A DNA stretch of 64,000 nt from Bryoerythrophyllum caledonicum (lineage: Eukaryota > Streptophyta > Bryopsida > Pottiales > Pottiaceae). Positions 16,331 to 56,400 of this stretch are shown here, piece by piece (position 1 is the first letter of the stretch; each line of letters starts with the position of its first letter). The stretch spans positions 18,666,990 to 18,730,989 of the forward strand of contig OZ020518.1 of assembly GCA_963971425.1 (NCBI GenBank), read 5' to 3'. Both the position numbers and the translations under genes were made by a program. The notes beneath the pieces were generated by a model that made no database searches, had not been told where the DNA came from, and worked only from the letters and a program-made list of their open reading frames with translations.

Positions 16331-16340
16331 GGTATTTGTC
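16331..16340. repeat. 10-bp target-site duplication, left copy
   Basis: GGTATTTGTC occurs here and again, identical, at 31817-31826, immediately outside the inverted ends of the 15.5-kb insertion. Mutator-like elements usually duplicate 8-11 bp. Confidence 0.85.
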
Positions 16341-16414
16341 GAGCGAAGCTAGTATGTGAGCGGGGAGCAAGGAGCAGTGAGCAGGGAGCAGGGAAAATGG
16401 GAGCAGAGAGCAGG
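16341..16414 (+). repeat. Left terminal inverted repeat of the Mutator-like element
   Basis: Begins GAGCGAAGCTAGTATGTGAG and continues as runs of GAGCAGGGAGC, GGGAAAA and GAGCAGAGAGCAGG. The inverted right end (31816 down to 31749) begins GGGGAAAGCTGTCGCATGAG and carries the same GAGC(A/G)GGGAGCAGGGAAAA core and GAGCAGGGAGCATGG. The similarity is continuous over about 70 bp with a few mismatches. Confidence 0.8.
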
Positions 16415-16939
16415 AACTTGCAAAAATCTCTCTTGAGATTTAAAAAATTCGGTTGTTAAATTATTAAAATCATGTGATTTATATTTCTTTAAAAATTAGC
16501 AAAAAGATGCCTATGATCGTGTACCACAGGGGGTCCTAAACCGCGAATAAAATATGGATTTGCACATTTAGAGATATTGAATCTGGTTTGAAAAAATTCA
16601 AAATTTCAAAAGTTTGAGGGGATTGGAATTTATTATTCACTACCTTATTTTGATACTCAATTGGTGAAAAGATAAAATTATAAACTTCAAAAAATAAGGT
16701 ACGGAAAATTTCAAAAACTTGGTAGTGGCCCTTTTCGTCGCACTCCATATTCAAATACAACTCAACAAACTTAATACACAATTTCAAACCCTACAATATA
16801 AAGGAAACTACAAATTACTTTCTACATCATGGTGATATGTGGCATAAAACCCCAGTTTCTAGAACACGCTTCACTTCATTGAAGCTAAAGCTCGGGGCAT
16901 GCATAAACACATCTACTCCGGAATCCAAACTACAGATAG

Positions 16940-19900
16940 TAGTAAAGATGTAGTAAAGATGCTTGCATTGGGTCCATTGTCCTCGTTTCCCTAAGGACTA
17001 TGTCAACATCTCTTTGAAGTATGGACATGAACAATCTGGAAATGAACCTATAGTCATCAAGTACTGTTGAGAGTTGGGAACTATACCAGATTCTAGAGTA
17101 ACGATACATCCAAATCCTAGATGATGTACCATGGTCACTTGATGAATGCGACACCTGAGGGTGACAGCTGATGCACAATTGTTGAGATGTTTTGTTGTAG
17201 GAGCCCTCATATTCCTACGAATACTCTTCCCAGATCTGATCTTAGGATATTTATAAGGGGAATCCATAGTGGGATGAAAATTCATATCAAGGGTAGGACC
17301 TTGACTACCAAAAAGTCGTCTTGGAGACATTGCCACACGTTGAGGTAGTTGAAAACCTGCATTCTCGAGTGCCAAAATTTCTTTCTTCAAAAGATTAGTT
17401 CCAATTTTAATTGGCCAGACACTTGGAACATCAGGTTTCGAGAGGACCCACTTGCGTTTGGTGCCCTTTACACAACGCTTGATGTCGTCATTGCAGAAGA
17501 AGAATTGCATGCGCTCCACCTTGTTCTTCTTATAATTGTCCATCATTCCACCATAGGTAGGAGCAGCAGTGCTTTTGTTGTCTTGCACAATTCTTGCAAT
17601 ACACTTCCTCTTGGTAAGTGCCTTTAATGCAAAACATGCTTTTGCAGAAGTCTTTGGCAATCTTGCAATGTGCCATTGTGGCTCATTGCATACAGTCTCC
17701 TGAACAGCAGTAATATGGCTTGAAAGAGATCTCAATGGAGATTGAATCACCTCTGTTGCCATGGAAACAATTTCTTCTTCAGGTACGGTAGAAAGAAACT
17801 CCTTGTGAACATTACTCATGCTAGGTGCACCCATACAAGCTCTGGATGTTCTGGTATTGATTCTTGGATAGGAATAGTTTACCTTGTCAGGCCGATGGGA
17901 CTCATGCTCGTCACCCAAAGGCATGTCGGGCTTGCGTTTCTGACTACCAAAGACTTCTTCTCCTTCCATGTGGAGATGACGAGTGCAAAATTCATCAGCT
18001 CCAAGCATTTTTGCTATAGCCTCGTTTAGAACCTTGGGGTTTCCAGAGCAAGAGACAGAACGTTGGGCAACCCTTAATAGCAACTCCTCCTTTCTAGGCC
18101 CATTGCCTCCACGTTCCCCTTTAAGAAACTGATAATACTTCACCACTTGTATAAATGCTCTAACAAAGTCATCCACAGTGGCCACATACAAGTCATTACG
18201 TCGATTTCCGGACTACTGGAGCCATTTGTTGTGAACTGTCTCTGCAAGATTGCATGAGGGCATCTCGGCAAGCTCAGCCTCAGTAAGATTCTATACACAT
18301 GCCATGGAATGAAGGAACAAAGGTGTTATTCAACCAATAACACGAAAATTGATGAGTACGAATATTTGAAGACAGAAATGAATGGTTTCATAAAACATGT
18401 TTACGGCTTTCGCTTACAAGTTGCATAAAGCCACCCTACTAGCGGTATCGAAAATGCCAAAATGCTAGCCACAGCTCCAAACAACTCAAGCTCTCCCCCG
18501 TTGCGGCACCTGAAGAATGCCACCATCCTATGATGGCGTGGTAGCGAGTTTCGGCCTCATTAAATGTTGTTGCATTCTTATATTGCTTGCAAAGCTGTTG
18601 ATGTTGATCTTGGAGGTCAGCCCTGATGTCGGCCTTCGTATGCTTCTCAAGAGATTGGGTCCAATGGAAGAGGCATGTTCGTTCTTGATTGGCCATTGGG
18701 ATGGATGCATCGCCACTTCCATAGATGACCCGCACTACATTCCAATTTGCTTGCGTGCTATGAGCCATGAATCCTTTGAACTTAGGATCCGGTATGTCAT
18801 GCCTAGCTGCTGCTGCATTTAGATTCTTCCAAAAAATGCATTGAGCAGCGGCATCCTCAGACTGCATATCACAAACCGCCAGAGTCATAACCCTACAGAA
18901 AGTTGAGTTGTACACATAGCAAGCCATCGTGGTCCACTGCTTTACACGCTTGACATGGTCAAACATCAACCATGCGTCTTCGAGGTCGCCGGTGGGTTGC
19001 ATTCGTCTTATTAAGTCAACTCCACTTCCTGGCCCCACTTCAGACATCTTGAAGACAAATACCTTATCTGAATCGGATCCTTGGCCCGGAAATTTATTTT
19101 CCTGAATGAAGGCCCAATTGCTGCAACCCCTCAACTTTGTGATACTATCCATGATGCCATACCGCCGTAGGTACTTGAAACTTGTGACCTAATTTCGAAT
19201 ACTAGGTGAACTGATGGACTTGCACATATCCAAAACATGTACTAACTCCTCCAGGTTCAAGGTCTTCAACGGAACATCTTCACGCCGTAGAAGAAGCTCT
19301 CCAAGAATATCTTTACTTGCCTCCAAAACAATTGCAGAGGTAGTAGCATTTGGGGTCCTTTCAACATGCTCCCCAATAAGGGCATTGGTCCTCTCGGTCA
19401 ACTCCCTATAGTCACCAACTTTGACAGGATGTCTGTAAACCCCTAAATGCACACATGCGCGAGTCATAATTGAACTGCCAAACACATTATATATTCTAGA
19501 ATCGCAGCTAGTAAGGCAAGAAGGGGGTGTCTTACAAATCTTACAAACGAGTGATGAACCGTTCGGTGGAAGACAACCAACCCCAAACTTTGCTGATGTC
19601 GAGCCCTCCCACTTTGTACTGTTGATGGAAGATGTTCGATGGACACGAGTCAAGTAGGCACAATTGCGGTTATTGCATTGGAGATGGCCCACGCAACTGG
19701 ATGTGCGAAATGTCAGTCCCGCGTCATTCTTGATATGCGAGGTAATTGTCTTTGTCCAAGCGTAGCCATCGTATCGCTTGTCCATTCCTGTCATCAACTT
19801 CGCTTGCGAGAGCATTCTAGAGGCTTGGACGGGAGGTAATTCAAAAATGACATCCTCATTGAAAACATGGGATAGACCATGTACTCTTTGAATACAAACA

Positions 19901-20518
19901 ATACTATAGTCGAGCTTCTTGAGCATGTTTCTAGATCCTTTTCCATCATGTAACTGCTTTAGTGAGTCAATAATACTAAGAGAGTCACTAAAGCTCGCAG
20001 GAGAAGATCCACTTTTACCCGAGATGCGATCAACCGATGAATCTGGCCTTGAGCAATCAACGGTGGTACGCGACGAATGAATCTTACGAGCAGGAGAGTC
20101 AGCATCGGAGTCATCACTTATGATAGTGACAAAGTTAGAATCAAGCTCAACCTTCACTTCAAAGAGTATGGGAGCATTTGAACAATGAGGAGTACCGTCC
20201 TCTGTCGATGGGTTCTCAGCATTGTAACTTACGCCATAGACTCTGAATCTACCTGGCTTAAGCAACCATTGCTTCTCATTATCAAATATATGTATGATGC
20301 TGACCTAGCGTATGAGTAATACGTCCTGAAGAACCATCAAACATTTCTTCGTCGAGATACAAAGAGTCTGCTTTCAAATGAAATCTCAGGCTCAATCGTG
20401 ACGCAGAAATATGAGCAAATCCATCTTCAGAGAGAGGGATTGTGAAAGGCAAACTATCATGAGATGCACGTATAACAGCCATACTGTAGTGACACTCATC
20501 TATCTCCTTTGCAGCCAT
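16940..20518 (-). pseudogene. SWIM-type Mutator-like transposase, decayed
   Basis: One gene of roughly 1,150 codons, likely starting MAAKEIDECHYS near 20518. It has a zinc-binding-like region (GHLQCNNRNCAYLTR, VCKICKTPPSCLTSC) at about 19.5-19.7 kb. A transposase core at 18.4-19.1 kb includes WTTMACYVYNS, MTLAVCDMQSED, GFMAHSTQANWN and ERTCLFHWTQSL. A SWIM zinc motif follows (DCSCPYF then, in a shifted frame, CKHLYY) near 16.95-17.0 kb. A 127-bp intron at 18417-18291 has GT...AG ends. Premature stops lie at N|V near 19185, at a TAG-TAG pair near 18437, and at Q|S near 18213, with frameshifts near 20.28 and 17.0 kb. GFMAH replaces what I expect to be GFMAD, a likely catalytic Asp (inference). 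I recall similar plant proteins but could not search for them. Confidence 0.7.
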
Positions 20519-22731
20519 TCCACCAGAGGTACTATCACACAATTGCAATCTGGAAAGGACTCTAGAAGTCAATGTCAAAGAATATATTCAGTGCCTATGA
20601 GAGGAAGTAAATCTGAAAGAGATCAAACGATTGAATTGACCACGAAGTAAATCAACAGCTGTGATACAAGAGATTGATGAGGTGGTAAATCGTAAGCCAG
20701 TAATGAACATGAATATTATTGGTCCCTATTTCTATAGTATAATAGGACTTGGTGACAAGGAATTGAAAGATATCTATGAAATAGATCTCTGGGCCTGATT
20801 GGCGGCTAGTGAAGCAATAATATTAGGGTAATCGACAAGATTGACAGCTTTGCCAGTGCACTGAATGGTCAATAAAAGACAAATAACTTAGACTGGACGC
20901 CGTCACCGATGTCAGTGACGGTTGAAAAAGGATAGTACTCGTGTACTATATAGAGTGTACTTTGAGCACTCTATATATAGAGTGTACTTTGAGTCGAATT
21001 CCATTTATGATGACTACTAAAGCACGCTGAGTACTTTGAGATGAGAATTAAACGAACAGTTACACAGTAGTATTGATTCATCATCCCTATCGGTAGTCTC
21101 CATAAAAGGACCCGCAGTTGTGGTGTTTCAATGGAGAGTGATGAGATGGTGATTGTGATCATGTTGGTAGGTTTCTAAGAAGGTGATTGAAAATATATGT
21201 ACTCAGAGGGGTTCGGTATTCTCTAGTTCAAATGCTTAATGGGCAGTTTAGGTCGCCATCAGCACGAGGTAGAAGAGGAAGAAGGAAGACCGGATTCAGA
21301 TTCTCCAGTAGAAAGACCATAACCAGATATAGATTGCAGAAAGAGTTGAAGTTGAGGGAATGTCAGAGAGTTGGAGAGTGTTCAAAGGGATCAAGCACAA
21401 GTGAAGGAAGTAAAAGGATTGAAGAGAGCAATGGAGATGACGGTGGAGCTTCTGAAACCATGATATCAAATTTGATGTCTACGGTGAAGGAGTTGAGATT
21501 TGAATCAAGTGCATCGGAAGAAAGTCACGGATCCCAACATATCGCACTGGCTGAGGTAGGTATTTTCTATTACCTTGTACTTTTGAAATTATTTCATTGT
21601 TTAATGAGAATTATACTGTACAAATCTAATGATTTGCATTGGTGCACCATTTTGCTAGTTGGACTTCAATTTAGAGAATTGAAGAAGTAACAACACTATA
21701 AACATTGAAAAGAAGCTGATTACAAGAAAGCTGATTACATTGATAAGAAGCTGATTTTGCAACTAGATTACAAGAAACTGAGAGGATGGCCATACTGAAT
21801 ATGGAGGCTCGCAATAAATAAACTAGATAATACTAGAAAATACAATAACCTTAACGCACATTTAGTGATTGAATTATGTCCCATAATTTGTCCAGTGTCC
21901 TAAATACATCAACTGCTTCATTGACCAAGAAGATTAAATAAATTTTAACTAATCACCAGTATGGACTTATCAAAATTTGGACTTGAAGTCAAATATTCAG
22001 TTCTGCAGGATCTAGAAGAATACTATTCGCTATTACTGCGGGTTAATGAGGATGCATTTAAGTTGTAAGTTTGCTATGCACCAATCTTCAAAATGACAGG
22101 TAACAAAATTGGACCGAACTTGAGGGCCTTGCATTTGTACCTACTGAATATAGTACGAATACTGAACTGAATGGTCGTCTTCCTTTCGAGCCGGAAACCC
22201 TTGGCCAGGCTAAATGCTCTTTCCCTTACTCAACTTGAGCGACGAAACCCCAGATTTCGCTTACCGCCTTATTCCTATCAAATCTCGAGCGTGGAACCCA
22301 GAGGTCGCAAGCAACTTCATATAATCTCTGTTTTTGGAACATGTGGTCTTATGGTCGTTCAGCTTCCATGTAGGGTTTGATCATTGCTTTGCTGAAAAAA
22401 TGAACTGTGATCTACGTGATTCTCAACAGAATGATGCTCATGCACGATTGGATTGGTGGGGATGCAGGAGTGTGGTCACAGTAAACGCGGCGACTGGGCA
22501 GCAATGCAAATTGACTACCGCGAGGACTTTGCAATCAGGAGCGGCGGTTTCGGCAAGGTACATTATCTCACAAACATTGTACAGCATGTTGAATTCAAGC
22601 TTCACTATTCTGATGCTAGGGTTTGATCGGGCTGAGTTCATTTGATAACTGAATATCGCTTTAGGGCACGTGCTATCACTTGGGAGCAACCCGGCATTAA
22701 TGGGTCGTCGATTAGGTTCAATTCTTGACTG
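20519..22731. other. Middle region of the Mutator-like element, left part
   Basis: Non-coding by appearance. A repeated CTCTATATATAGAGTGTACT motif lies at 20.95-21.0 kb. An open frame at 21187-21690 (167 codons, Arg/Ser/Glu-rich) has no recognised motif and may be chance or a captured fragment. Confidence 0.35.
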
Positions 22732-22866
22732 CGTCGGTGCCGACGTTGTTTGATCCTGAAGTCTCGTGAGTGGAGATTCGTGAGTTTGAATTCGGGAGTG
22801 TCGCCGACTGAATGTGCGCAGTAGGAGTTCGGATTCGAGAGTGTGGACTCGTTAGTCGTGACGTCT

Positions 22867-23036
22867 CGTGAGTGTTGCCAACTTCACGAAATCTGAACTT
22901 GTATTCATGACGTTCGAATCTGAACTTGGATTCGTGAGTGTCCATAACCCTACGAAATCTGAACTTGTATTCGTGAAGTTCGAATCTGAACTTGGATTCG
23001 TGAGTGTTGCCGACTTCACGAAATCTGGTTGTTTTT
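22867..23036. repeat. 66-bp tandem repeat, about 2.6 copies
   Basis: Units start at 22867, 22933 and 22999 and share CGTGAGTG, ACGAAATCTGAACTTGTATT and TCGAATCTGAACTTGGATT. The unit length is a multiple of three, so repetitive open frames appear on both strands; these were not accepted as genes. Confidence 0.85.
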
Positions 23037-23371
23037 TTGTGGTCGCCAACTGGTGTTTTTCTAAGTAGATAATTGCGTCGTATTCCAGAAGTTGACCGGG
23101 AGAGTGAGTGTTTTTTGGGGGGTGACGTTGGAGACGGTTGAGTGTCGCCGGAACATGATGGAGGGCATCACGTGGTGGGACCTGAGTCCAAGTTGAGTGT
23201 GCTGTTCGGGTTGTGCTGGGTTACGATCACATCAGGTGGTGGGGGACCATATGATAGTGGTGAGCACCCAACGCAACGATCGATAAAACTGGGACTTGAG
23301 TGTGTTGCGGCTTCTACCAAAAGTATGAAAGGAGTGAAGGAATGGGGGGACGTACATTGGAAAGGAATAGC

Positions 23372-23661
23372 TACCTGGTTGATCCTGCCAAGCCTGCATG
23401 TGTATGTATTAACTCTATTGTACTGTGAAACTACGAATGGCTCATTTAATCAGCTATAGTTGCTTTGATGGTACCTTGCTTCTCTGATAACAGTAGTAAT
23501 TCTAGAGCTAATACGTGCACAAACTCCTGACTCAGCTCGCCAGGAAGGGACGTATATATTAGATAAAAGGCCGATGCGGGCTTGCCCGGTATTTCAGTGA
23601 ATCATAATAACTTGTCGAATCGCACAGCCTCTTGCGCAGGCCATGTTTCATTCAAATTTCT
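23372..23661 (+). pseudogene. 18S rRNA 5' fragment
   Basis: The segment starts TACCTGGTTGATCCTGCCA, the first bases of mature 18S rRNA. It continues through ATGGCTCATTTAATCAG, AGTAATTCTAGAGCTAATAC, TTAGATAAAAGGCCGATGCG and CATTCAAATTTCT. It covers about the first 320 positions of 18S but lacks some 28 bases after position 19, and has many substitutions, so it is not a working rRNA. The similarity stops abruptly at 23661, before the palindrome at 23668. It lies between the two genes of the Mutator-like element. Capture from rDNA or by template switching of an RNA copy are both possible. Confidence 0.9.
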
Positions 23662-24528
23662 TGATCCAGCGTCGGTATCGACGCTGAATGTTCTCCATCA
23701 TTCTGCTGCCCGATGTACCAAAATGACTTAACGACTTCAGTCCATAGTTAATGGTTGTTATGACAGTTGGGGTCGATACATGAGCTGATTCATCCGGGAG
23801 ATGTTGTTATGTGAGAGTTGAATGCACTTCAAACATCCAGGGCGTTGGCTAGAAATCGTTGCGTCGGCACGGACGCACCTGCCTCCCCGATTTTTTTCAG
23901 TGAGGAACTCAATTTATTAATCGCATTAGATACATTTCCTGTTTCATTGAATGAGTAGTTTTCTTTCAAAATAAGATCATCTGGTTAGTAAGTTATCTTT
24001 CTCATGATCATTAGTCAGCCTCATATGGGCTCGTCGGTACCGACAATCTTCCTTAGCAGATCAAAAATGCCTCCAGATTATTGAAAAAGCTTTTGAGGGT
24101 CCAAGTTCACATTAATGTTCCGTCAAGATGCTGATTCTACTTTCATTGTATGAATATTTTGTTGAAATGAATCGATTAAAAGAAGTACCACCATGATTGT
24201 CGGTGCCGACATAGTCATCTCCGGATTGAAAGCACAAACATTTATATAATAAAAACAATGAAAGTGTCACTTGACTAAATGTTCTGGTTCCTTGGTTTAT
24301 AATGAATGGTACCGAGGTGAACTTTGGAAGGATCCGTTCAGTTCTTTTTTGTTTAGTTCATCACAGTGATGTTCGTTTGATCTTCAAATTGTACGAGTTA
24401 TATTGGACAACATTAGCCTAGTAACATTGTACTAGTTTAGGTTCATGAATGGAGGTCAGTACTTCTGCCATACACGTCGGTGAAGTAGTTTTCTATGAAT
24501 CGCCACCAGTGCCGCGATCCCTTCCTTT

Positions 24529-24888
24529 GTGAGCGCATTCCCGAGTAGATCCTCGCTGCGAGTTGCCAGCCAGTCCCCCCGGAAGCTGCAGCAGGGTTGT
24601 CGTCCTCTCCGATGTGCGGCGGATGCTAGTTCCACGGTGGCGACCGTAGTCGACGTGGGCAATGAGAATCTGACTGAGCTACCGCCGCCGCTGGCAACCG
24701 TGTTGGTCCCGGGGTTTCCACCGTGCCAAGGGAGCCCGTTCTTCGAGGAGGCGCTGGAGTACCTGAAAAATGTAAAAAGAGTATATGGCCGCTCCCGGAG
24801 TAGCATCGGTGCCAACGCTACTTTTTGGCAGCCCATGAAAACCGGATTGAATTGTGTATGGATTGAACTGTGTATGGATTGCCTATAA
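24529..24888 (+). other. Possible captured coding segment
   Basis: A GC-richer stretch in AT-rich surroundings with an open plus frame of about 119 codons, including VLVPGFPPCQGSPFFEEALE then YLKNVKRVYG, which reads like real protein. The opposite strand is also open over most of the stretch, so the sense strand is unsure. I do not recognise the product. It may be an upstream exon of the gene starting at 25021 or a captured host fragment. Confidence 0.3.
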
Positions 24889-25020
24889 TTTTGATTGAGT
24901 TCTCAGGTTGAGGTTGATTCTTGTCTGGTATTTGCCTTTGCTCTCGTCTCATTATATTGTCAACCTATGTCGAATTGTGTTGCTTAGAAACTAATTTTGA
25001 TATGACCCAAAATTCAGGTC

Positions 25021-28000
25021 ATGGACCCGTCATCAACTCAACGGTCTACCCGATCACCCAAATTCTCTGGTGGCACAAGTTCACATCCGGACGCGGATGT
25101 TTCGGTGGCGGATGAGGTGGATTGTCACCTACATCTTAACGAAGATGAGCTTCGTCAACACCATAGGGTAAATTGTATCTTTGCTATAGACAGCCTACGC
25201 ATTGCACCCAAGGCTTCCTCTCGCTTTGATGTGCCGTTGTGCAGGCTTGTGTACATGCCACTTGTCCGACCCACAATGTAGTCGGATATTAAGCGGTTGG
25301 AGGCTGAATTTACTCATGGATATCGTCCTGGATCTACCGTGTTTTACGTTTCTATTTCCAATGACCTCGGTGAGTACTATAAGAAACCCGTGTTTTTTGT
25401 AACGCGTTGAAAAACATGCCTGAACATCAAAATGAACATGCTGTGACATCAATGTTGATGTCACCTAAAATCCGTCTACCTTGACAGGCAAAAAACGTCC
25501 AAAATTTTGGGTGACATGGTTGATTTGGGGTTGTCAACCTCTTGACATCCAAATGAACGTGGTCTAAAAGACTTTGGAAAGGGCTCCGCGTGGAGGGGGC
25601 CCCACGTCCACATAAACAAATCCTTCATCAGAGCAATGCCACGTAGGATTTTTTTCATCCAACTCCATTTTCATAGTGGCAGTGATGTGGAATTTTGAAT
25701 TTGCTGACTTGGACCTCTCAATTTCTGATGTGGACAGTCTACGTCACCTAACGTCATGGTTTTAGGGCATATTCTGTCCACACAGGGCTGTTACTTTTGA
25801 CGTTTGTTATGACATGTTCGGGTTCTTAATGACATCGATCCTGACGTTGGCGCGTTCTGCCTATATGTTGTCAATGACCTTTTTCATGTCGGAGTTCATG
25901 TTCACTTGAACATCTAGCATGTTCTTGCGGACGTTTTTCTAAACATGTTTCTAAAAATGATCAAAACCCTAATGAGTGTGATTTGGCGCTTGCTCGGGCA
26001 ATTGATGAACGAGCATGGGCATTCCGGAAGGATTTAGGGTGCCTAAAAATTGTTCTTCAGACTACGTCATCGGTGTGCGACGACCTAGGTTAAAGCTTCA
26101 GCGCTCAAGAGGATCTACAGAACTGGAATTCGGGGCTGTGTGGATGGGAGAGCTGCGGTTTGCAGCTTGGCGCGACCTGCACCACAAGGAGGAATTTGGC
26201 GCGAAGATGATTGCAAGGTAGAGCTCCGCGCAAGTTCGTGTTAGAACCACATACCTGCAGTTCAATGCGAAGACCTCACGACATGCTTCACGAGTTCTAA
26301 GTAAGTGGAGTACATACCGGCCTTGCTGCTGCAGCGCCTCTCCGCGGTGGCGAATACCGAACTTGGCTATGGCTAGGGTTTCCTGGCCATGGCTGAGGTC
26401 AGCTATGGCTGGGGTTAGCCGGCTATGGCCAAAGCTCCCCTTGCCATCGATCTTCTTCCCTTTGAGCTCTCCCCTTGCCGTCTGGATCTGCCGTAGATCA
26501 CCTTCCTTGCTCCCAGCTAGCTCCGTTGTCACTGCTCCATGGCTCCCACCATAACCGTCGCCATAGCCACCGCCATAGCCGCCGTTGCTTTGTTCCATCA
26601 CCTTCAAGTTGCCTCTTTCTACTCCTTGTTGTTCTCCTAATCTCCTTCCTCTTAGCGTTGAAGTGAGCTTCGCCGCTCCCCACTTCCCACTTCTATCATC
26701 TAAGTTCAATTTGCTCTCACCCACACTCCCAAAACCAAAGTGTAGATGTTGTGGAGGTTGTTTTTCTGTAAGTCGTCCTTCGGCTCTTCCTTCCTTGCGA
26801 CATATTTCATCCACTACGGATGAAAGCTGCCCATTTCCTCACATTTTGGCTTTCGAGCACCGGGTTGCAGTCATTCCACAGTAAAATGAAATGCAACTGT
26901 GGCTGACGTGGACATCCCGTGTTTTCTATGACGTCACAGTCTGACGTGGTCACGTTTCTTTTGACGTCACCAAAAACGTGCATGTCTACGGTGACATCAA
27001 CGCGTTTTGTCTTTAACAAGAACACGTTTCATGCAATGTCAAACTAAATTTGAGGTACTGTAGCAATTTTTTGACTAACGTGTGACATCACAGAAAACAC
27101 AACACGTAATAGCGTTGACGACACTAAAAACATGGTTTTCTTATAGTGGAGGAGTCCTTTGTTTCCGAGGAGGATAAAGAAAAATGGGGCCCTTTGTGGA
27201 ACGCAGCCAATGATCGCTTTGAGTCAAATCTTTTGGCTACTCCCCAGTTGAGCTTTTTGAAGAATCGTAAACTCTTCATATGTGATGGAAATCATCGCTT
27301 CAAGGCATGGATGGGATATATTGAGAGAATGCATAATGCTGATGTAAACTGGCACATCTCCGTGGATTGCATTTGTTTGGATATCAAAGGCAGTGTCGGA
27401 TTGGCTCTTCATGTTATGCACGATATTAACAGGTGAGCATCATTCACTAATATCTTGCAATATTCATTCGGTACTTGCATCCTGGATTCATTGTTTGATT
27501 TTTGATTCTACTGTCCTTGTGTAGAGCCACAGAAAACTCACACGTCAAGACCAACTTCGTGCACATACTCCATCGAATTAAGGCGATTGGAAGTCAACCA
27601 CTTGAATCATTCAAGGATTTGTTGACTGCAGATGATTATCACAAGTGCTTGGCAAATCCTAGGAGAGGGAAGTCATGGTATCCATTAAAAGTCGATGTGT
27701 TTGTCTCTCTACTCTTTCGGGTAAGTATTTTCACTTTCAAGTTTTTTGGTTGTAAATGTATGCATTTACTGGTATTTTCTTATATTCTTACTTATTAATT
27801 ATGTTTGATATGGACTTATACCATTTCTCACCTCTTTAGCAATTGTTGATGGACCTCAGCAAGAGATTGCTGATGCATCAGATGAGGCTGCCAGAGTGTA
27901 CCACGATAATACTCCTGTGGAACTTCGGATTGACTCTGAGATTACCATTTCTATGCGAATTGCAGCAAAGGCAAAAATTCAGATGTACAAGGGTCAGTGG

Positions 28001-31000
28001 TCTAAATATTCGGCCGTTGCAAATCCAAAGCTTGGTGACCAGTTCTTTGAAGAGGTAAAAATGATTCTTGAGTATATTTGATATTTCATTTGAAGTGATA
28101 CATCTACATAGAGTGATTATTCAAAATAATTTCTCTTCTTGTAATTTCAGATTACAAAGCATTGGAGTTCGAATTCAAAACCAGAGATGACTTTGGATAA
28201 GTTACGGTTGATTGCAACTTCCAATGTCCCACCCCATTTCAAAGTTCGATGGCTTCAGTGGTGGAATTCTAGTAATGCCACTAGGGAAGCTCTCCACTTT
28301 CCTCCGAAAGGATTCAGCAATAAGGAGTTAGACTCGTGGTTAAACAAGGCATCATTTTGGGCCGGAGAAAGTTCTGTTTAGCAAATTTCTTTATTTCTGT
28401 GAATTTAGTTCATCATATTTTGGAATCAGTTCATTCATAAAATGCTTTCAACCCAGTTGAGCAAGTTAATGTTGCAAAATTTGATCATTGTAGCTTGAAG
28501 TCGCCATCTCTGAGGAGTTCGAGAGTGTACTTAAAGCCGACAAGCTGCTGCTGAAGTTGGACCTACCGGAGAGACCTCGATCTCCACAAGAGTTTGTGGA
28601 AGCATCGAGGGTTAAACTTTGGATGCATGCCTTTTCAACACTTTTAAGAAGCAAGACCACATTCTCAAGGTCAAAGGAATTTAAGAACCACAAGAATATT
28701 GACTTGGCTATGAAGCGAGTTGTTTGGAGGTGAGTTGGGTATTTTAGTGATATCAATTACAAATCATTGCCTTTAATTTATTTATCTGAATGTGTTATTG
28801 CAACTTACAGGTATTATATGAAAGAGCTCTTTGTTAAGGGTGCCCTTGAGAGACATCAGCTTCCATTGTTTCTTCAGACATGGATTGATAAAAATTCATG
28901 GCATTGTATGTTCACTCCTACTCAGCTTCAATTGTGGTCAACTTTGCATTTAAATGATGGATGTTGGTATCTCGATTGCACGAAGCCTTTTTGTCCATCT
29001 GAGGAGGAAGCGGCAAAGGCTTCTCATGACAACTCCGAGGTATCTGGAGTGGTTGGTGCCACCACTCAAACCACTGTTAACCTCAGTGATGAGGATATGG
29101 ACAGCGCTGGCGGGAGTACATTATCTGGGAAGGAGCACTTGAAGGTCCTTTCTAAGCGCACCAAGGAGGCTGAGAGAGAAGATCAAAGGAAAAAGAAAGA
29201 AGCAAGGCGGGTTGTGGAGAAAGCTCAGAGGGCTGCTGAATTGGCTACTGCGAAGGCAAAGGAGGCAGAGGCAAAGGCGGTAGCTCTTGGCTCAGCAAGA
29301 TCTGGCACTCTAGGAGATAGCCCCTCAACTGTTGGTGTGAGTCCAACCTCCTCAGATTCTTTATCTCGTCTACATTTGAAGCGAGATGCTACATTTGCAG
29401 GGCTATCAATGTCACGATTGGTTCAAGGTACTTCTCATGCACTTAAAGACATTGTGCAAGATACACAATTTGTCGATGAGTGCATTATTAATGCCTCTCT
29501 GCTCTCCATTGATGCACACCTTTCGAAGTTCAAGTCTTTTCCATCGGCATGGACAAACTTGCAGGCCTTCGTTGATAAGGTACTTTATTTTCATTATTTC
29601 TCTAATATTTTTGTCCATTCATTAATTGATAGTCAATCTAATTTCTATTTTTATTCCAGCACAAGCTTTTGATCGCCCTCGACATTTCTCAGGTCGTCCA
29701 AAGAAGACTTCTGGTGTTGATTTGATGGTTGTGGATATTCTGGAGAACTTGCCAGTTCCAAATATTTCCACGTCTATTCCGGCGTAGAATGTTTTGGATG
29801 AGAGGTTTGTGGATTTGATTTTTGACTTTGCCAACAATCACATCCATGACGATGGCGGCTTACTTCTCTTTCATGCTGATGATCAAAGTCTGAACTCCAA
29901 GTTGAAGGGCTTTATGAGAGCTTATCATTTCAAGATTTTCAAGGAGTGGATGGGTGTCAATCGGTTGCGTTTGACAAGTGCCAAGGATCCATTAAAAACT
30001 GTAAATATCCTGAATTATATAGATATTTTAATCCTTGTATTCGGATTTGAATTGTTGTTAGTCAGTTCGTTTCTTAATGTTTTTTTCTTTGCAGACACTT
30101 CGATTATGCATCAAGTTGTTAGTTCGAAATATCCCGAACTCCGCACCGTCTTTGTTTTCTTTGAAACCAGTTGACGAGTTGGAGGCTGTTGGAATCGACA
30201 TTGTGGCCGATGATGTGCTGCACAATTTCGTTACAAAAGACTCACAACTTATTCGGGACACTATTCCATAGAGAGGAGCACGGGAGAAGGACCCCATTCT
30301 TCTTCAGATGCTTATTGAAGCGAGTACTCATGTTGGAGACATTGTGATGGATTGTACTCCTTCAACTGGTATGTTGTCATTTCGTTACTTATTCTGATAT
30401 AAACTCTTTGGTGCAGTTGGGGTGTTTTCTCTAACTCATCTAACTGAAGTTTTTATTTACAGGTGCCTCCATTCATGCTTGTCATAAGGCCGGTCGCCAT
30501 GTTGCGGCGTTGGAGGATGATGGAGAGATTTTTAAGTCTATTTTGCAGCCGCTTGTTGTCTACGGGGTGAGCGACAGCTTGAAGAAGCAACGCATTCATG
30601 TAGAGCAGACAAGTGCTGATGATGATGAGGAGCTGATAGAGAAAGACGAGCCTATGATCGATATTGTTCCACGAAACCGATTCTGTGCGTAAGTCTTGCA
30701 TTTTGAATTTTAGTTACCAGACTCACCATTTTTCATGTAATTTTTATACATTTTTTTTATCTTCATTTGGTTTTGTGAATTTTGTTTCAATAGCTCACGT
30801 GTGAGGAAACCTAGAGATCGACAACACATTCTTTCTGATCGTTTGTTTTTTACTCCGGAGAAGTCATTTCACTTACCAGTATATGCAGAGGCGGTGGCTC
30901 AAGCATCTTTATTCACCTCGCGAACTTTTATCGCTCCTTCTCGCTTCACTGGAGATCCTAGAGTACTAGAATTTATGGATGTGTCAGCTGTAGAAGATAT

Positions 31001-31145
31001 TTAAGTTCTACAGCCTTCTATTGTGAGTGGAGATGTGAGTTGTGATTACTCTTCGCAGTCTTCTACCAGTATGTGTTCATTATCTCCTCGTGAATCTATT
31101 ACTGCTTTCGACGACGGCACTTCAACTTCATCTTCTTCTAGGTAG
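25021..31145 (+). pseudogene. ParB-like plus DNA-methyltransferase-like gene, multi-exon, decayed
   Basis: Exons read by eye: 25021-25374 joined after the CACTA-like insertion to 27149-27432; 27524-27720; 27840-28054; 28151-about 28380; 28494-28729; 28811-29579; 29660-30000; 30095-30368; 30463-30688; 30794-31145. Introns have GT...AG ends. The N-terminal part has LFICDGNHRFKAWMGY, like the DGNHR core of ParB/sulfiredoxin-fold proteins. A Lys/Glu/Ala-rich helix at 29.15-29.3 kb leads to GRPKKTSGVDLMVVD (position of a DPPY-like motif, degenerate here), GGLLLFHADD, and then GDIVMDCTPSTGAS with AALEDDGEIF, which resembles AdoMet-binding motif I placed last, as in beta-type N4/N6 methyltransferases. 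Premature stops lie at 25279, 29785, 30269 and 31002, and one-base offsets at the joins into 27840 and 29660. The fold calls come from pattern only. Confidence 0.6.
25375..27148. mobile_element. CACTA-like element inside the ParB-like gene
   Basis: The right end inverted reads CACTATAAGAAAACCATGTT and the left end reads TACTATAAGAAACCCGTGTT, matching CACTA-type termini with the first base changed on the left. The 3-bp duplication GAG flanks it (25372-25374 and 27149-27151), as usual for CACTA elements. Near both ends are repeats of TGACGTCAC/GTGACATCA type. At 1,774 bp it has no transposase. A GC-richer centre at 26.1-26.8 kb may be captured sequence. The host exon frame continues exactly across it (ISNDLGE then ESFVSEED). 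Confidence 0.75.
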
Positions 31146-31748
31146 TTATATCAATACACTATTTTGTGCTTGTCTAGTGACTTGACTTTCGCGAGTGACT
31201 TTACGGTGATGTACGTCATATATATATATATTTATAATGTAGTAGTGAGACTACAAGGGCCACTACTTTGGTTTTACAGTTTCTTGTTGTCATCCTTCCA
31301 TTCTATTTAATAGAAGTGCAATAGTTGAAATTTACTGAGTACTACATAAGTTTTTTCGCATATACTTTGACAATTTGCATGATTTAAGATCAACCGTGAA
31401 TAGACATCATTTAGTTTACTATTTAAAATAATTTAATTGTATAGACTATATAGATACATGATTAGAACAAAATTTAGTAATGTTTAAGCTGAATTGATGG
31501 TAGAGGATGGAATGCAAATTTCTGACTTTATCGATGTGTTTAATTGCATTTATTTATTCTGCTAGAAATATGCATTCATATTTTAGAAACTGCACCGTAA
31601 CTTCATTTTATTTTTGCAATATTCTTTTGTTATTTTCAAAAAACTCGCCCTAAACCCTAAACCCACTTTCACGGTGATAGGACCTTTATTATCCATTTGG
31701 TGTTTACTTCCACCTATTAGAGTTCTTCGGTTTAAAAAAAATATGAAT
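31146..31748. other. Right non-coding arm of the Mutator-like element
   Basis: AT-rich sequence after the ParB/methyltransferase-like gene, with an (AT)n-like TATATATATATA run near 31.22 kb and no recognisable gene. Confidence 0.5.
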
Positions 31749-31816
31749 CCATGCTCCCTGCTCTTCTTTTCCCTGCTCCCCGCTCTCTGCTCTAGGCTCA
31801 TGCGACAGCTTTCCCC
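31749..31816 (-). repeat. Right terminal inverted repeat of the Mutator-like element
   Basis: Inverted partner of 16341-16414; reading inward it starts GGGGAAAGCTGTCGCATGAG. It is followed outward by the second copy of the 10-bp duplication, GGTATTTGTC (31817-31826). Confidence 0.8.
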
Positions 31817-31826
31817 GGTATTTGTC

Positions 31827-32484: not shown

Positions 32485-33582
32485 CTAATCGGGCTTTTGT
32501 CGGGGGTATCTTCTTTGGAAGGCCAATCTTCTTTTTGGAAGTAGTATGGAATGGCATGGGCGTGCTCGTGTGGGTCTTTGGCATTTTTGTGTGTTTTTTC
32601 TCGGCCTTCTTTTTGCTAGTTTATGAGCTTGTTCGTTGCCATCAATATTGGCATGGGCTCTCACTTTGTGAAGGGTTGTAATTTGTGTTCGGTTTTGTAA
32701 CATTTGGACCATAGACGTTAATATCGTTTGGTCTGGGTGGCTATTGTGAAGGGTAGGGTGTGTTATTTGGGTGTTTAGTAGGTAAAGTGCATTTATACAA
32801 TCTGTGAATATATGTGCGGGTTCATTGTTGTATTTTGTTGTGATGATTTGTAGTGTTTTGTAAATGGCCATGAGTTCTACTCTAAGGATATTTTGTAGTC
32901 CAAGAAGTCTTTTGGCTAGTTTAATTTCCTTGGTAGAGTTACATATGCCATAGCTTGCTTTTTCTCTGTGCCAAGAGCTCGGGCTAATTTGTTCTGGTGG
33001 TTTAAAAGAGCCATCGGTGTAATAACTGTGTGCGGGGTTAAATTTTGGTGTGGTATGAGCTGGATAATTTGGGAAGGGGGGCGGTGTGACGGAGTAGTTT
33101 AATGTATTATTGATATAGTTTAGTTTTAACCAATTTTTACTACGATTTATGGGGGTCTGCATAGGTGTCCGTGGGGCTGGTTTTGTATATAATCTGTGGA
33201 TGTTTAAATTGTCTGATATGGAGGTAATTTCGACAAGTTGCTCTAGGGTGCCAAAGGTTTGATTTTGATGATGGACACATAGTATTTGTAGTGTAGATGG
33301 CTCGATTCGGGGTTTTTTTAGCTCGGGTGGAATCGTAGGTTCTTCGTATGGTATTGAGTCTGCCTCAAATACTGCAATGATATAGAAATCTGGGAATGAA
33401 TTTGAGTGTTGGTTGTTGTTTTGGTACCAATTGTTGTTTGGTGTGATGATAATTGTGCTTGTGTTATTTGGGTCATGTTTGGCGGCAAGTCGAGCCCAAT
33501 GTATTGCTTGTTCTATTTCCTTATCGTTATGAGGGTGGGCTATACCATTACCGGTCCATTTGTAGTCAAAGGCCTTTCCCAA
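32485..33582 (-). pseudogene. LINE ORF2, RNase H segment
   Basis: An open frame of 365 codons. RNase H occupies about residues 187-324 (33024-32611), with the acidic active-site positions in YYTDGSF, ELMAIYKTL and IFTDCINAL and the terminal HKVRAHANIDGNEQAHKLAK. This enzyme removes RNA from RNA-DNA hybrids. The N-terminal 180 residues (WA..AAK.D..., IIITPNNNWYQN, FPDFYIIAVFEAD) are a linker I do not recognise. RNase H between reverse transcriptase and a C-terminal nuclease fits Dualen-type order. Confidence 0.85.
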
Positions 33583-33698
33583 GGATCCAAATATTTTGTC
33601 TCTTTCATAAGGTGAGTAGAGTTTTTTAAGTTTGGTAGAACAAGTGACCGGGGAAGAAAAGTATGATTGTTCGATGTTAAAAGATGAGATTAGTGAGT

Positions 33699-34873
33699 CT
33701 AGAATGGGTGTGGGTATTTGAGGGGGTCATTTTTTGGAATTTGGTATTTGTATCTTTGGTATAGCCAAATCAGTTCGGTTTCAAAGGATTGGGTCTTTAG
33801 TTCTATGTTTGTGGGAGTTTGTAGGTTTGTATTGTATTGATTCCATAACCATTGGAGTCGATTAATGGGAATAGTGTGTAAATGTCGGCCATTTTCTTCG
33901 TATATTTGTGCTTGGTTGTTATTTATTTTTATTGTGTTTGTGAATGTAAGGATATCATTTTCGGGATTGCATTCTGTTGTATTGATGTTTAAGAGTGGGA
34001 TAATTATGGGTGGTGTTACGGACCTTGAGTCTAAGAATTGTTCTTGGGGGTGGTGGGCTTGGATGATATTCAAGTAAGCTTTGTTATGAATTTTTTTGTA
34101 ATATTGTTTTAGTTTTTCAATGTTATGTGTGGAGGTATTGGTGTCGTGTCGTGGGAAAAGATCCCTTTGGGAAGCCATTTATTGTATGTATTCTCGTTGT
34201 GTTGCCATTGGCATAGATATTTTGTGTGGGTATTTTGTATTTTATTCTTGTCTGTATGTTGTATATGTTTATGTTGTGTGATGTTACTAATGGGGTATGT
34301 GATAGGATTTTTGGGAATGTATGTTGGAGGACGTAGGTGGTATGGATATGGGGGGTAAGGGGGATTGGTTGGTGGGGGGATATTTCTTGGGGTGATGCTA
34401 TTGTTGATGGTGATAAATGGGTCTTGAAGTATATAGGAGTATGGGTGTAAATTACAAGGGGTATGACATGTGGTGGGGCATGTTGGATGGCAAAAGAGTT
34501 GTTTTGCAACGTTTAGAGCACTTTTTAATAGTTTGGATGGGGTGAAGTGGTAGGCTTTGAAGTCCTCATTGTTCATGATGTGTGTGCCATTGGGTAAAGT
34601 AATTTGGCTTAATTCAAAAATATTTTTTGAGATGAGTTTTTGTAGAAGCTTTTGAGAGAGTTGAGCATTGAATGTGTTGTGATTTAGTGTTTCTTGACGC
34701 CATATTATTTCTAGTGATGTAGGATTGATGAGGAATTTTGGAAGCGTACTTCTAAGGTGGACTTTAGCTATTTGTTTTAATAAGAAGAATGTTCGTGTGA
34801 TTGGTGATCTTATGCAGTCACTTTTTTTAAATTCTAGGTATATTTTTGGCGCCCCCATATTGGGCAAGGACAT
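33699..34873 (-). pseudogene. LINE ORF2, region between RT and RNase H
   Basis: Two overlapping open segments on the element strand (34873-34109 and 34178-33699), Asn/Thr/Pro-rich in part, continue ORF2 from the reverse transcriptase toward RNase H. No named domain is visible. An internal HPTCPTTCHTPC run is Cys-rich but not a standard knuckle. Confidence 0.5.
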
Positions 34874-53473: not shown

Positions 53474-56400
53474 ATGGAGAGCCGCACAATTCAAACTCCT
53501 TCGATACGGCCACACATCCAAAGGAATAATATGTTTTCCAATAGCTCTGTGGGGGCTCAATTAGTACGAGCAGCACCTGTAAGACAAATTCAACAAAGAT
53601 CTCTTGGGATCGCGACATCTGAATTGGAAAGGGTAGTAGAATTGCTTTCTGAAAGAAGAGATGTGGTGGGCTTAGCAACCAGGGAGCATGCATTCAAAAG
53701 TGGCATGGAATTGAATGGGTCAAAGTTGTTCCTATTCCTGGTGGCGGTGCATATCATTAGGATAGATGATACGTTGCATTGGACTGGAAGTTTTTGTCGG
53801 AGAACGCCTTCGCATGTGTGTCGGCTTGAACATTCATTGGCATCGGTCTTTGCTACGTGTAGTGGCTGTAGAAGCTAATATTACAAGTGTCCATGGTGAC
53901 ATTGGATCACGAATAGCGCCTACTCAAATGATGGCCTCAGAGTTTGATTTTTCTAAGTTCATCAACACACCAGGATCCATCGAGAGGTCTCGACGCAGTA
54001 GTCAAGCTTCAAACGCTATAGCTGAAAATTCTCCCTTTTCCCAATCTACTCCCTCAAATATCAAAGATTTGCCGCATGTAGATGGATTTGCTTATATTAG
54101 ACCAGCACGTCGTCTATATTCTATGCAAAATAGGAGAAGGAGAGATTCAAGAGAGCCATGATTGACAGAAGCTGCACCATCTAAGGTATCGCTTAAAAGC
54201 GTGCAAATTGCAATGGCACAAGGAGGATGCAAACGCAATTGTTTGAGGGACGTTCCAACAACGTATCTATTGGACATGCAATATAATGCATGGGCTAATG
54301 AGTTTTCAGTACGAAGTACGTGGATAAGACAGATGCTAGTTTCTTTTTGTATAAGGACGGAAGGAACTGGTCAAGACAAGTTTGTAACAAAGTTAGATGG
54401 GATAGAAGTTTGCAATGCTTGCTACGCTCTTGGGGTTGAATATTCACAGAGGCGCTTTAAGCAATTGAAGAAGGACTGTCTAATATATGGAAGAGTGACA
54501 TGATTCACGACAATATCCTTTCAGATCCGATCAAAGAAAGCACTAGAATGTCTGCGGCAGAGGCTTGCTTTAAATTGTTTGTCAATGAAGCTGGTTGTCC
54601 TCAATCTCATCGTTGTATTCGCCGAAAGAGTTACAACAAAGTGGTGCCTTTCATTCTCCTTCCTATGAGTACAACCAAATTTGATGTATTCAAATACGTG
54701 AACGAGGATGTCAAAAGAACCTGTACTGGGAAAACCAATTCTATGAGTTTGTTCCGGAGGATGTGGCGCATCAAGTGTCCCCACGTTCAGGTACCTCCAT
54801 TCTCAAGATTCTCAAAGTGTTATCATTGTTGGGAGTATAAATGTGCAATAGAGGGAACCACCAATGCAGATGCAAGGATTAAGATAAAAGAGTTGTTTAT
54901 GTTGCATTTGCGCAACCAAATAGAAGAACGTAGGCATTATTGGATATTCAAGAGGTCGTGTTATATTAGCCCTGAGTTGTACATGTGCATCATAGTGGAT
55001 GGCATGGACCAGAACATGACCATGGTACCAAGGATGCGTCAGACTGTGAAGAACATTGAACACCGGTTTGTGAAGATCCATCTGTGTGGTGCTCTTGTAC
55101 ATGGGATTGGTTTATATTGCGACGTTTGGTTTGGGGTTCACCACAAACATGATAGCAACCAAGTCGTGAGTACATTGTTGTACATGATAGGAGATGTGTT
55201 GCGGAGGAAAGGCTTTTTGCCACCAACATTGTAAATCTAGGCGGACAACTGCACACGGGAGAACAAAAACATTTATATGTTTGCTCTATGTGCTACATTG
55301 GTGGGATTGGGGTTTTTCAGGAGGTGGAACTATCTTTTCTCATAGTGGGCCATACACACGAAGATATTGATCAACGCTTCAGTTGTATATTAAATACGTT
55401 GAAGAGGTCGGACGTGGACTCGTTGAAGGAAACGATTAATCTTGTAGAACGAGGAACATCTCCCACGTAGGCATTTGTTAGCGCCCGGCTGCTAGAGAAT
55501 GTATGCGATTGAAAATTGTTCATAAGTCCTTACTTACTGACAAGTCCAGAATTATTAGTGGGCATAACTTTCCTGCACGACATGTGATTCTATATGGACA
55601 ATCAAGAAGGGACTTGTGAGGTTCGAGTGCAACACAAACATTATTGCAAGGATCCATGGGGACCGGAGGTAGGAACAAAAACTTTGAGGTCGTTGCCAAG
55701 TAGGGATGAGGGACCATCGTTTGCGCAAGTATTTGCAGCGGACGAACGGGAGTTGAAGGTGTTGGATGACTTCATTGTATATAAACAAAGGTGCATTCAA
55801 AGATTGCAGCATGAGGACAAGAATTGTGAGGCAAAAGTAGAGGTTGAAAGATTGAAACTCTGTATAGCTGAATTTCCACACAAAGACCATAGCAATGAGC
55901 ATCGTTCCTCAACGTTTCGGCCTTCAAAGTTCTCCAACACCGGACCTGCAAAGAGTGCATCTTTGGGTGTAATGGATGGTGCAAGTGAAGAAAATCGCGA
56001 GATAAATGTCGTAGAGTAGGTACTGGCGATGCTTTCAAATGCTAACGCTCGAGGATACTTTGGTCCTCGTAGAGAAAGACCTTCTAATCAAGCACTGCGC
56101 AGGGCACAACGAACAGAGCGCAACTATGTTGAGGAACGAGCCAAAGAAGGAGCAATGTATGAAGGTAATTATGACCCATTTCCACCATTTAATTCACAAT
56201 CTAATATCTATTGTGGACAATTTGTAGCCTTGAGTGTTGATCGAGCAGAAATAGAAGACGGTGTACCATTCTATGTAGGGAAAGTGATTGAAGAAAGAAA
56301 AAAATAATGGAGACTTAAGATAAAAGTTTGTTGGTATTGGCCCATCATCCAAAGAGGGGTTGTTGATGGACATGAGTCTTCTGCACAGCCGTATGCAAAT

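Follow-up and report, generated by a model that had tools for sequence, protein, structure and literature searches.

The stretch of DNA analyzed here (the window; 64,000 nucleotides of contig OZ020518.1 from Bryoerythrophyllum caledonicum, Pottiaceae) contains a 15.5-kb element at positions 16341-31816, a length that includes a 1.8-kb insert, in which two divergent genes lie between terminal inverted repeats (TIRs). One is a transposase-like gene, and the other is a spliced gene, referred to here as the cargo gene (Table 1). An initial annotation, made from the sequence alone, had described the cargo gene as a fusion of a ParB-like and a methyltransferase-like domain, recognizable by the stretches LFICDGNHRF, GGLLLFHADD, and AALEDD. 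The spliced gene proved to be real: each of its nine introns, which are 80 to 139 nucleotides (nt) long, has GT..AG ends, the GC content is 0.447 in the exons versus 0.28 in the introns, and a hidden Markov model (HMM) of six phage ParB-methyltransferase proteins matched its product at 24.4 bits, compared to 5.8 bits for the best of 2,000 shuffled sequences. The exon borders were set by hand from the reading frame and the GT/AG positions. The joined exons comprise 1,149 codons, with four internal stops (three TAG and one TAA) and one change of frame at the start of exon 7. GGLLLFHADD is encoded within exon 7 (29660-30000), and GDIVMDCTPSTG is separated from the AS that continues it by the exon border at 30368/30463.

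Sequence comparisons indicate that the METHYLTRANSFERASE part of the cargo protein, its C-terminal region, has a beta-class amino-methyltransferase fold with the motif order IV ... X-I-II, where the motif numbers (IV, X, I, and II) are those that we take to apply to this domain. The window copy matched the PHROG DNA methyltransferase family with an E value of 1.3e-5 and Pfam N6_N4_Mtase with an E value of 3.9e-4, and two relatives from the same genome matched the latter with E values of 1e-4 and 3e-5. All three Pfam matches were below the gathering cutoff, and that of the second relative (L068) covered positions 35 to 218 of the 221 in the profile. Five Protein Data Bank (PDB) matches had E values of 0.4 to 1.5, four of them to beta-class adenine enzymes (MboIIA, DpnA twice, and CcrM) and one to a glutaredoxin. 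When the single sequence was aligned by hhalign to the six phage proteins, the match ran from motif IV to motif II with a probability of 84 and an E value of 7.6e-6. The weight lies on the shuffle tests, since the six phage proteins were picked because they or their kin had matched. Block X-I-II scored 45.6 bits, compared to no more than 3.9 bits in 2,000 shuffles, and none of 5,000 shuffles did as well as the motif IV block followed in order by the HDDGGLLLFHADD block; the motif IV block alone was equaled by 272 of 5,000 shuffles. The HMM, hhalign, and ordered-block results thus bear out a methyltransferase-like C terminus in which motif I comes last, and the profiles matched by this region are those of methyltransferases and not of an unrelated fold.

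The catalytic motifs were read at 37 loci: the 30 best, including the window, 5 of 12 distant loci, and 2 loci that are 63% identical. Beta-class amino-methyltransferases have the motif IV consensus [DNS]PP[YFW]. At this position, the 37 loci have DIPE (26), DVPE (6), DILE (2), DVLE (2), or DISE (1), and neither the consensus nor the DIPY, DLPY, or DPDY of the phage set occurs at any of them. The D and the E are retained throughout, and the fourth residue is never aromatic. The window copy differs from most copies in one residue (DILE versus DIPE). Motif I reads DCT.S or nearly so at 32 loci and DVSVATG at 5; the first Gly of FxGxG is gone from all 37, with Ser (32) or Ala (5) in its place, and the second Gly is present at 32, which are all the loci where the alignment extends that far. 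Among 12 phage proteins known by annotation to be methyltransferases, both the first motif I Gly and the aromatic motif IV residue were present in 12/12. The telling loss is that of the aromatic residue, since the second position of motif IV varies in the phage set. DPPY and GxG, the signatures named in the initial annotation, are therefore kept at none of the 37 loci, less decayed copies included.

Even though the usual catalytic letters are gone, the methyltransferase domain is under purifying selection, as judged from substitution rates over 192 to 194 codons of exons 7 and 8. The ratio of nonsynonymous to synonymous rates (dN/dS) was sought for 12 pairs in all, which are not independent of each other. 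It was 0.10 to 0.11 for three pairs with a dS of 0.8 to 0.9, 0.08 to 0.09 for two pairs with a dS near 2.8 (saturated, so that these values are rough), and 0.12 to 0.28 for five close pairs; it could not be computed for two pairs. Taken together, the motif losses and the selection suggest that the cargo is probably a conserved, dead methyltransferase. Between the two possibilities originally proposed, a DNA or RNA modifier or a catalytically dead derivative, these results favor the dead derivative and are less favorable to the active modifier.

The cargo gene is regularly accompanied by the transposase. The genome (437 Mb in 894 contigs) was searched for copies, and cargo loci were picked by hand among the matches listed: 51 of the main families, the window included, and 12 of a family that is 38 to 40% identical. 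A transposase lies within 20 kb at at least 35 of the 51 main-family loci, versus 0.2 expected by chance, and is divergent from the cargo in every case; no same-strand or convergent pair was found among the matches listed. Conversely, the cargo is present at at least 35 of the 42 transposase places compared, which are the first 42 of 150 listed. The true pairing rate may be higher than these counts. The occurrence of the gene alone as a normal host gene, which the initial annotation had considered, is not what the divergent pairs show. At four places where the transposase is 76 to 77% identical (L075/L076, L091, L092, and L093), the N-terminal and middle parts of the cargo lie alongside in 4/4, at approximately 25 to 42% identity, and the methyltransferase part was found at three (L075, on the other strand, L092, and L093) and was not found within the 9.9 kb examined at L091. 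Because diverged cargo adjoins these transposases in all four cases, the association seems to predate the divergence of these families. A split cargo gene, as the arrangement at L075 might imply, was rejected, since the parts at L093 are in normal order; L075, the one locus with this arrangement, was treated as a rearranged copy. In the 38 to 40% identical family, no transposase among the 42 places compared lies within 40 kb of any of the 12 cargo loci listed. In five members of that family (L068-L072), a single long exon covers the methyltransferase region as far as motif I, and this region gives the best Pfam score (3e-5, L068).

We favor, with a probability of about 0.5, the reading that the cargo protein is a non-catalytic pseudo-methyltransferase that would act in trans as an accessory protein recognizing the element's own DNA. 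It would retain the N-terminal ParB-like part and the C-terminal methyltransferase fold as a DNA-binding platform, and the fold may still bind S-adenosylmethionine (SAM). The likeliest benefit would be the shielding of the element from host silencing, a plausible role by analogy with VANC of the Arabidopsis VANDAL elements; the alternative benefit, aid to the transposase at the ends of the element, is nearly as likely. More tentatively, with the odds somewhat against it, a widespread class of DNA transposons in this plant could depend on a conserved pseudo-methyltransferase, that is, on a prokaryotic modification fold turned into a non-catalytic, element-specific anti-silencing factor that senses DNA or SAM.

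The label "ParB-like" is a lead that rests on the conserved DGNHR motif, which 12 of 13 family rows contain; the row farthest from the window copy is approximately 36% identical to it. A box II motif of the G[HN].R type is present, and box II alone was equaled by 26 of 3,000 shuffles (the positive rows being part of the matrix). Several results weigh against the reading that we favor, and the first of them concern this N-terminal part. The three-block ParB test, for which the positive rows were again part of the matrix, was equaled by 1,206 of 3,000 shuffles. The Pfam scan found no ParB family and only DUF1015 at 0.02 to 0.04, and the N-terminal part had no match in PHROGs or NCBIfam. With the family profile, hhalign found box II only, with an E value of 0.002 and a probability of 14, and the best of the ten printed shuffled-column controls (of 40) reached 0.0043. 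Neither hhalign, with the single sequence or the family, nor the HMM and ordered-block tests gave significance against 18 phage ParB rows. The ParB domain of the initial annotation therefore keeps its conserved motif but is not recovered by profiles. Second, we infer the loss of methyltransferase activity from motifs, and DIPY or DLPY is found in 3 of the 12 phage proteins annotated as methyltransferases, from which the cargo differs mainly by the loss of the aromatic residue. Third, among the matches listed, a transposase is missing from the 20 kb around 16 of the 51 cargo loci, and the cargo is missing from 7 of the 42 transposase places. Finally, gene spacing in some copies on small contigs (C521, C839, and C843) is almost identical to that in copies on C7 and C2 (for example, 8,452 versus 8,453 bp); the former may be chromosomal loci assembled twice, in which case there are fewer independent copies. 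A ParB "box I" aligned by eye (RPT..SDIKRLEAEF..GYRPG) was discarded, as the ordered-block test did not support it.

The recurrent divergent pairing, the DNA-acting ancestry of the fold, and the conservation of DGNHR are also what would be expected of a transposition accessory factor, comparable to maize mudrB or to a target- or end-binding subunit, that binds the TIRs or donor DNA together with the transposase and has no role in silencing; we regard this as credible but doubtful. It is unlikely that the cargo is a still-active N6-adenine or N4-cytosine (or RNA) methyltransferase with an atypical active site (D[IV]PE and an STG loop) that marks the element DNA. Such an enzyme would account for the purifying selection and for the D and E of motif IV and the second motif I Gly wherever the alignment reached them; DIPY or DLPY is present in three of the 12 phage proteins, and the Ectocarpus protein described below is proposed to bind and modify its own transposon sequence (PMC12477816). 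However, the two residues missing at 37/37 loci are those found in 12/12 phage methyltransferases, and the D..E pair is not universal, since two of the more distant copies, L075 and L093, have DLKD at the motif IV place (L092 has DIPE). Capture of a host gene by chance, as a Pack-MULE-like passenger of no use to the element, was already disfavored and is highly improbable: Mutator-like elements (MULEs) often bear host fragments (PMC6446971), and some cargo loci have no listed transposase nearby, but dN/dS is low between element subfamilies, relatives that are only approximately 35% identical sit beside 76 to 77% identical transposases at four of four places, and the spliced structure is retained in other genomic copies.

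The closest described counterpart of the pseudo-methyltransferase proposed here is the Ectocarpus element Sola1-1_Ec32, in which a ParB-methyltransferase accessory gene lies opposite the transposase; such genes are stated to be present in both green and red algae (PMC12477816). Compared by description and not by sequence, the two proteins are alike in length (1,104 amino acids [aa] there versus 1,149 codons here), in being encoded on the strand opposite the transposase in a giant element, and, with the ParB label of the window protein provisional, in combining an N4C/N6A methyltransferase domain with a ParB-like part. They differ in that the Ectocarpus protein is a predicted modifier in a Sola1 transposon, whereas the window protein has degenerate catalytic motifs and belongs to a MULE-like plant element with 10-bp duplications. 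By size, orientation, and methyltransferase domain, as far as that description goes, the window gene is of the Ectocarpus kind, and this kind of gene is therefore already known, because the Sola1 precedent has been published. In a literature search of titles and the starts of abstracts (often the first 10 to 20 of many matches), from which subscription papers were largely absent, no such gene was found beyond Ectocarpus and none in a MULE or land plant, and the word "methyltransferase" does not occur in the main texts, as accessible, of a MULE survey and a gene-capture review.

Fusions of ParB and methyltransferase in phages and prophages (for example, NatCom_3357, Javan320, T280, WOVitB, and phiH) share with the cargo the order of the methyltransferase motifs and an upstream G[HEN].R-type motif, and the NatCom and Javan320 proteins also share an FHADxxxLN stretch with it. 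The phage proteins are approximately 400 aa long and have DPPY, whereas the cargo gene has introns and 1,149 codons, and its product has a long middle region and D[IV]xE. Nonspecific nicking is mentioned for a Bacillus cereus ParB-methylase (PMC5512222). In VANDAL MULEs, the VANC protein is reported to attach to a short motif carried by the element itself and to bring about a loss of methylation (PMC5735166). Like the cargo, VANC is encoded by the second gene of a MULE; unlike the cargo, it has DUF1985/DUF287, and its anti-silencing effect has been shown, whereas that of the cargo is a guess. DUF1985 had no Pfam match in the part of the cargo scanned, exons 1 to 9. To our knowledge, VANC has no methyltransferase fold. 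When a VANC-like motif array was sought between the two genes of the window element, the commonest 8-mer occurred 6 times, compared to at most 5 in 100 shuffles, and 10-mers occurred 4 times, compared to 3; the excess is partly due to a tandem repeat at 22866-23027 (2.5 copies of 66 bp) between the transposase and the cargo. A divergent 18S rRNA fragment (90.9 bits) also lies between the two genes, at 23400-23669. Fungal transposons that carry TET/JBP and retrotransposons that carry DNMT or Dam are known (PMC12730594, PMC5890265); they resemble the present element in encoding DNA modification folds and differ from it in enzyme family and transposon class.

Transposons with their own DNA modification folds provide a test of how mobile DNA escapes silencing. 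Here selection maintains the fold while the usual catalytic motifs are gone from every copy read, and the benefit to the transposon is thus probably not methylation itself. For the algal and plant relatives, the question moves from which base is methylated to which target is bound, and in a genome where paired copies number in the dozens and several subfamilies have diverged, it can be tested directly.

The element that carries the cargo gene is a large, multicopy, Mutator-like DNA transposon, an assignment that rests on the length of its target-site duplications, its TIRs, and a SWIM-like pattern in its transposase. The core of the left TIR (16372-16415) is 84% identical to that of the right (31748-31792), with an E value of 4.8e-4 and a score reached by none of 5,000 block shuffles and none of 5,000 random pairs from the window; the arms hold a GAGCAGG-like repeat, and their outermost 24 nt match weakly. 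Random pairs of 65-bp stretches from the window had a 10-mer in common in 87 of 20,000 cases. In five left flanks of other copies, homology starts at 16341 (three copies) or 16338 (one), with no match for L080; in five right flanks, it stops at 31816 (three) or 31817 (two). All five copies that could be paired, including the window, have 10-bp duplications, four of them exact and one agreeing at 9/10 positions; in the case of C2:2.97 Mb, the left end had two matches, of which the outer one gave the pairing, and the right end was taken one base further in. The published range for MULE target-site duplications is 8 to 11 bp (PMC6446971), and the element has both a duplication in this range and long TIRs. 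These borders, the duplications, and the other copies agree with the initial placement of both genes, divergently oriented, within one pair of TIRs. Elsewhere in the genome, copies of the transposase-like gene retain long open frames (732 aa in L057); the SWIM-like CxCx19CxH pattern of this gene was spotted by eye. Neither the broken copy nor the long L057 frames had a Pfam family at the gathering cutoff or a match to MULE.

Table 1. Features of the element and of its cargo gene (window positions)
Feature	Position	Strand	Remarks
Left target-site duplication, 10 bp (GGTATTTGTC)	16331..16340	.	Identical to 31817-31826
Left TIR	16341..16415	+	Core match to right arm; borders of other copies
Transposase-like gene, broken here	16830..20587	-	CxCx19CxH (SWIM-like) near C terminus
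Cargo gene, 10 exons/9 introns	25021-31145	+	Divergent from transposase-like gene
Exon 1, first part	25021..25374	+	One TAG; other copies read alike
Nested CACTA-like insertion in exon 1	25375..27148	.	GAG duplication at 25372-25374 / 27149-27151
Exon 1, second part	27152..27432	+	LFICDGNHRF (ParB box II-like) at 27272-27301
Exon 2	27525..27720	+	
Exon 3	27860..28054	+	
Exon 4	28151..28375	+	Weak donor GTTTAG
Exon 5	28494..28729	+	
Exon 6, middle region	28811..29579	+	Pfam matches subthreshold alone, e.g., DUF4398 3.1e-4
Exon 7	29660..30000	+	Motif IV position DILE 29734-29745, then HDDGGLLLFHADD strand; one TAG; frame change near start
Exon 8	30095..30368	+	One TAG; motif X/I region; DCTPST at 30350-30367
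Exon 9	30463..30688	+	Remainder of motif I; motif II-like AALEDD
Exon 10	30794..31145	+	TAA at 31002; gene end 31145
Right TIR	31748..31816	-	Core match; borders of other copies
Right target-site duplication, 10 bp (GGTATTTGTC)	31817..31826	.	Identical to left one

The cargo copy of the window is itself a pseudogene, because of its stops, its change of frame, and the CACTA-like insertion, the last of which the initial annotation had missed. The ends of the insert are terminal repeats that are 88% complementary over 25 nt, and the reading frame runs on across the empty site between the 3-bp GAG duplications; the C9 copy, which has no insert at this site, reads through residues 1 to 214 in 642 nt. 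The possibility that TAG is a reassigned sense codon was rejected, as other copies are free of stops at these positions (exon 7 and the transposase piece) and the 826-aa frame of an HD-ZIP IV gene in the window is free of TAG. Relatives of the cargo gene and of the transposase piece were absent from a viral contig collection, the methyltransferase part had none in a general genome contig collection, and a guessed DNA pattern for cargo copies had no match in its own genome. Single-sequence structure predictions had mean predicted local distance difference test (pLDDT) scores of 44.8 and 32.2, which are too low to use.

A LINE-like neighbor (32488-33726, minus strand) has an RNase H domain (E value of 2.7e-9), preceded on its N-terminal side and in frame with it by a match to PCIF1_WW with an E value of 5.2e-7 and 29.8 bits, compared to a gathering cutoff of 31.1. 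This match is possibly a second transposon-borne methyltransferase-related domain; nothing on PCIF1_WW in a LINE-like element was found among the 10 matches listed in the literature search. A DUF7869 match at 54461-55231 (plus strand; E value of 1.4e-5, slightly below the gathering cutoff) probably belongs to another transposon. The HD-ZIP IV gene of the window, which indicates a plant, matched PDF2_C (7e-102), START (2.8e-51), and the homeodomain (4.5e-20).

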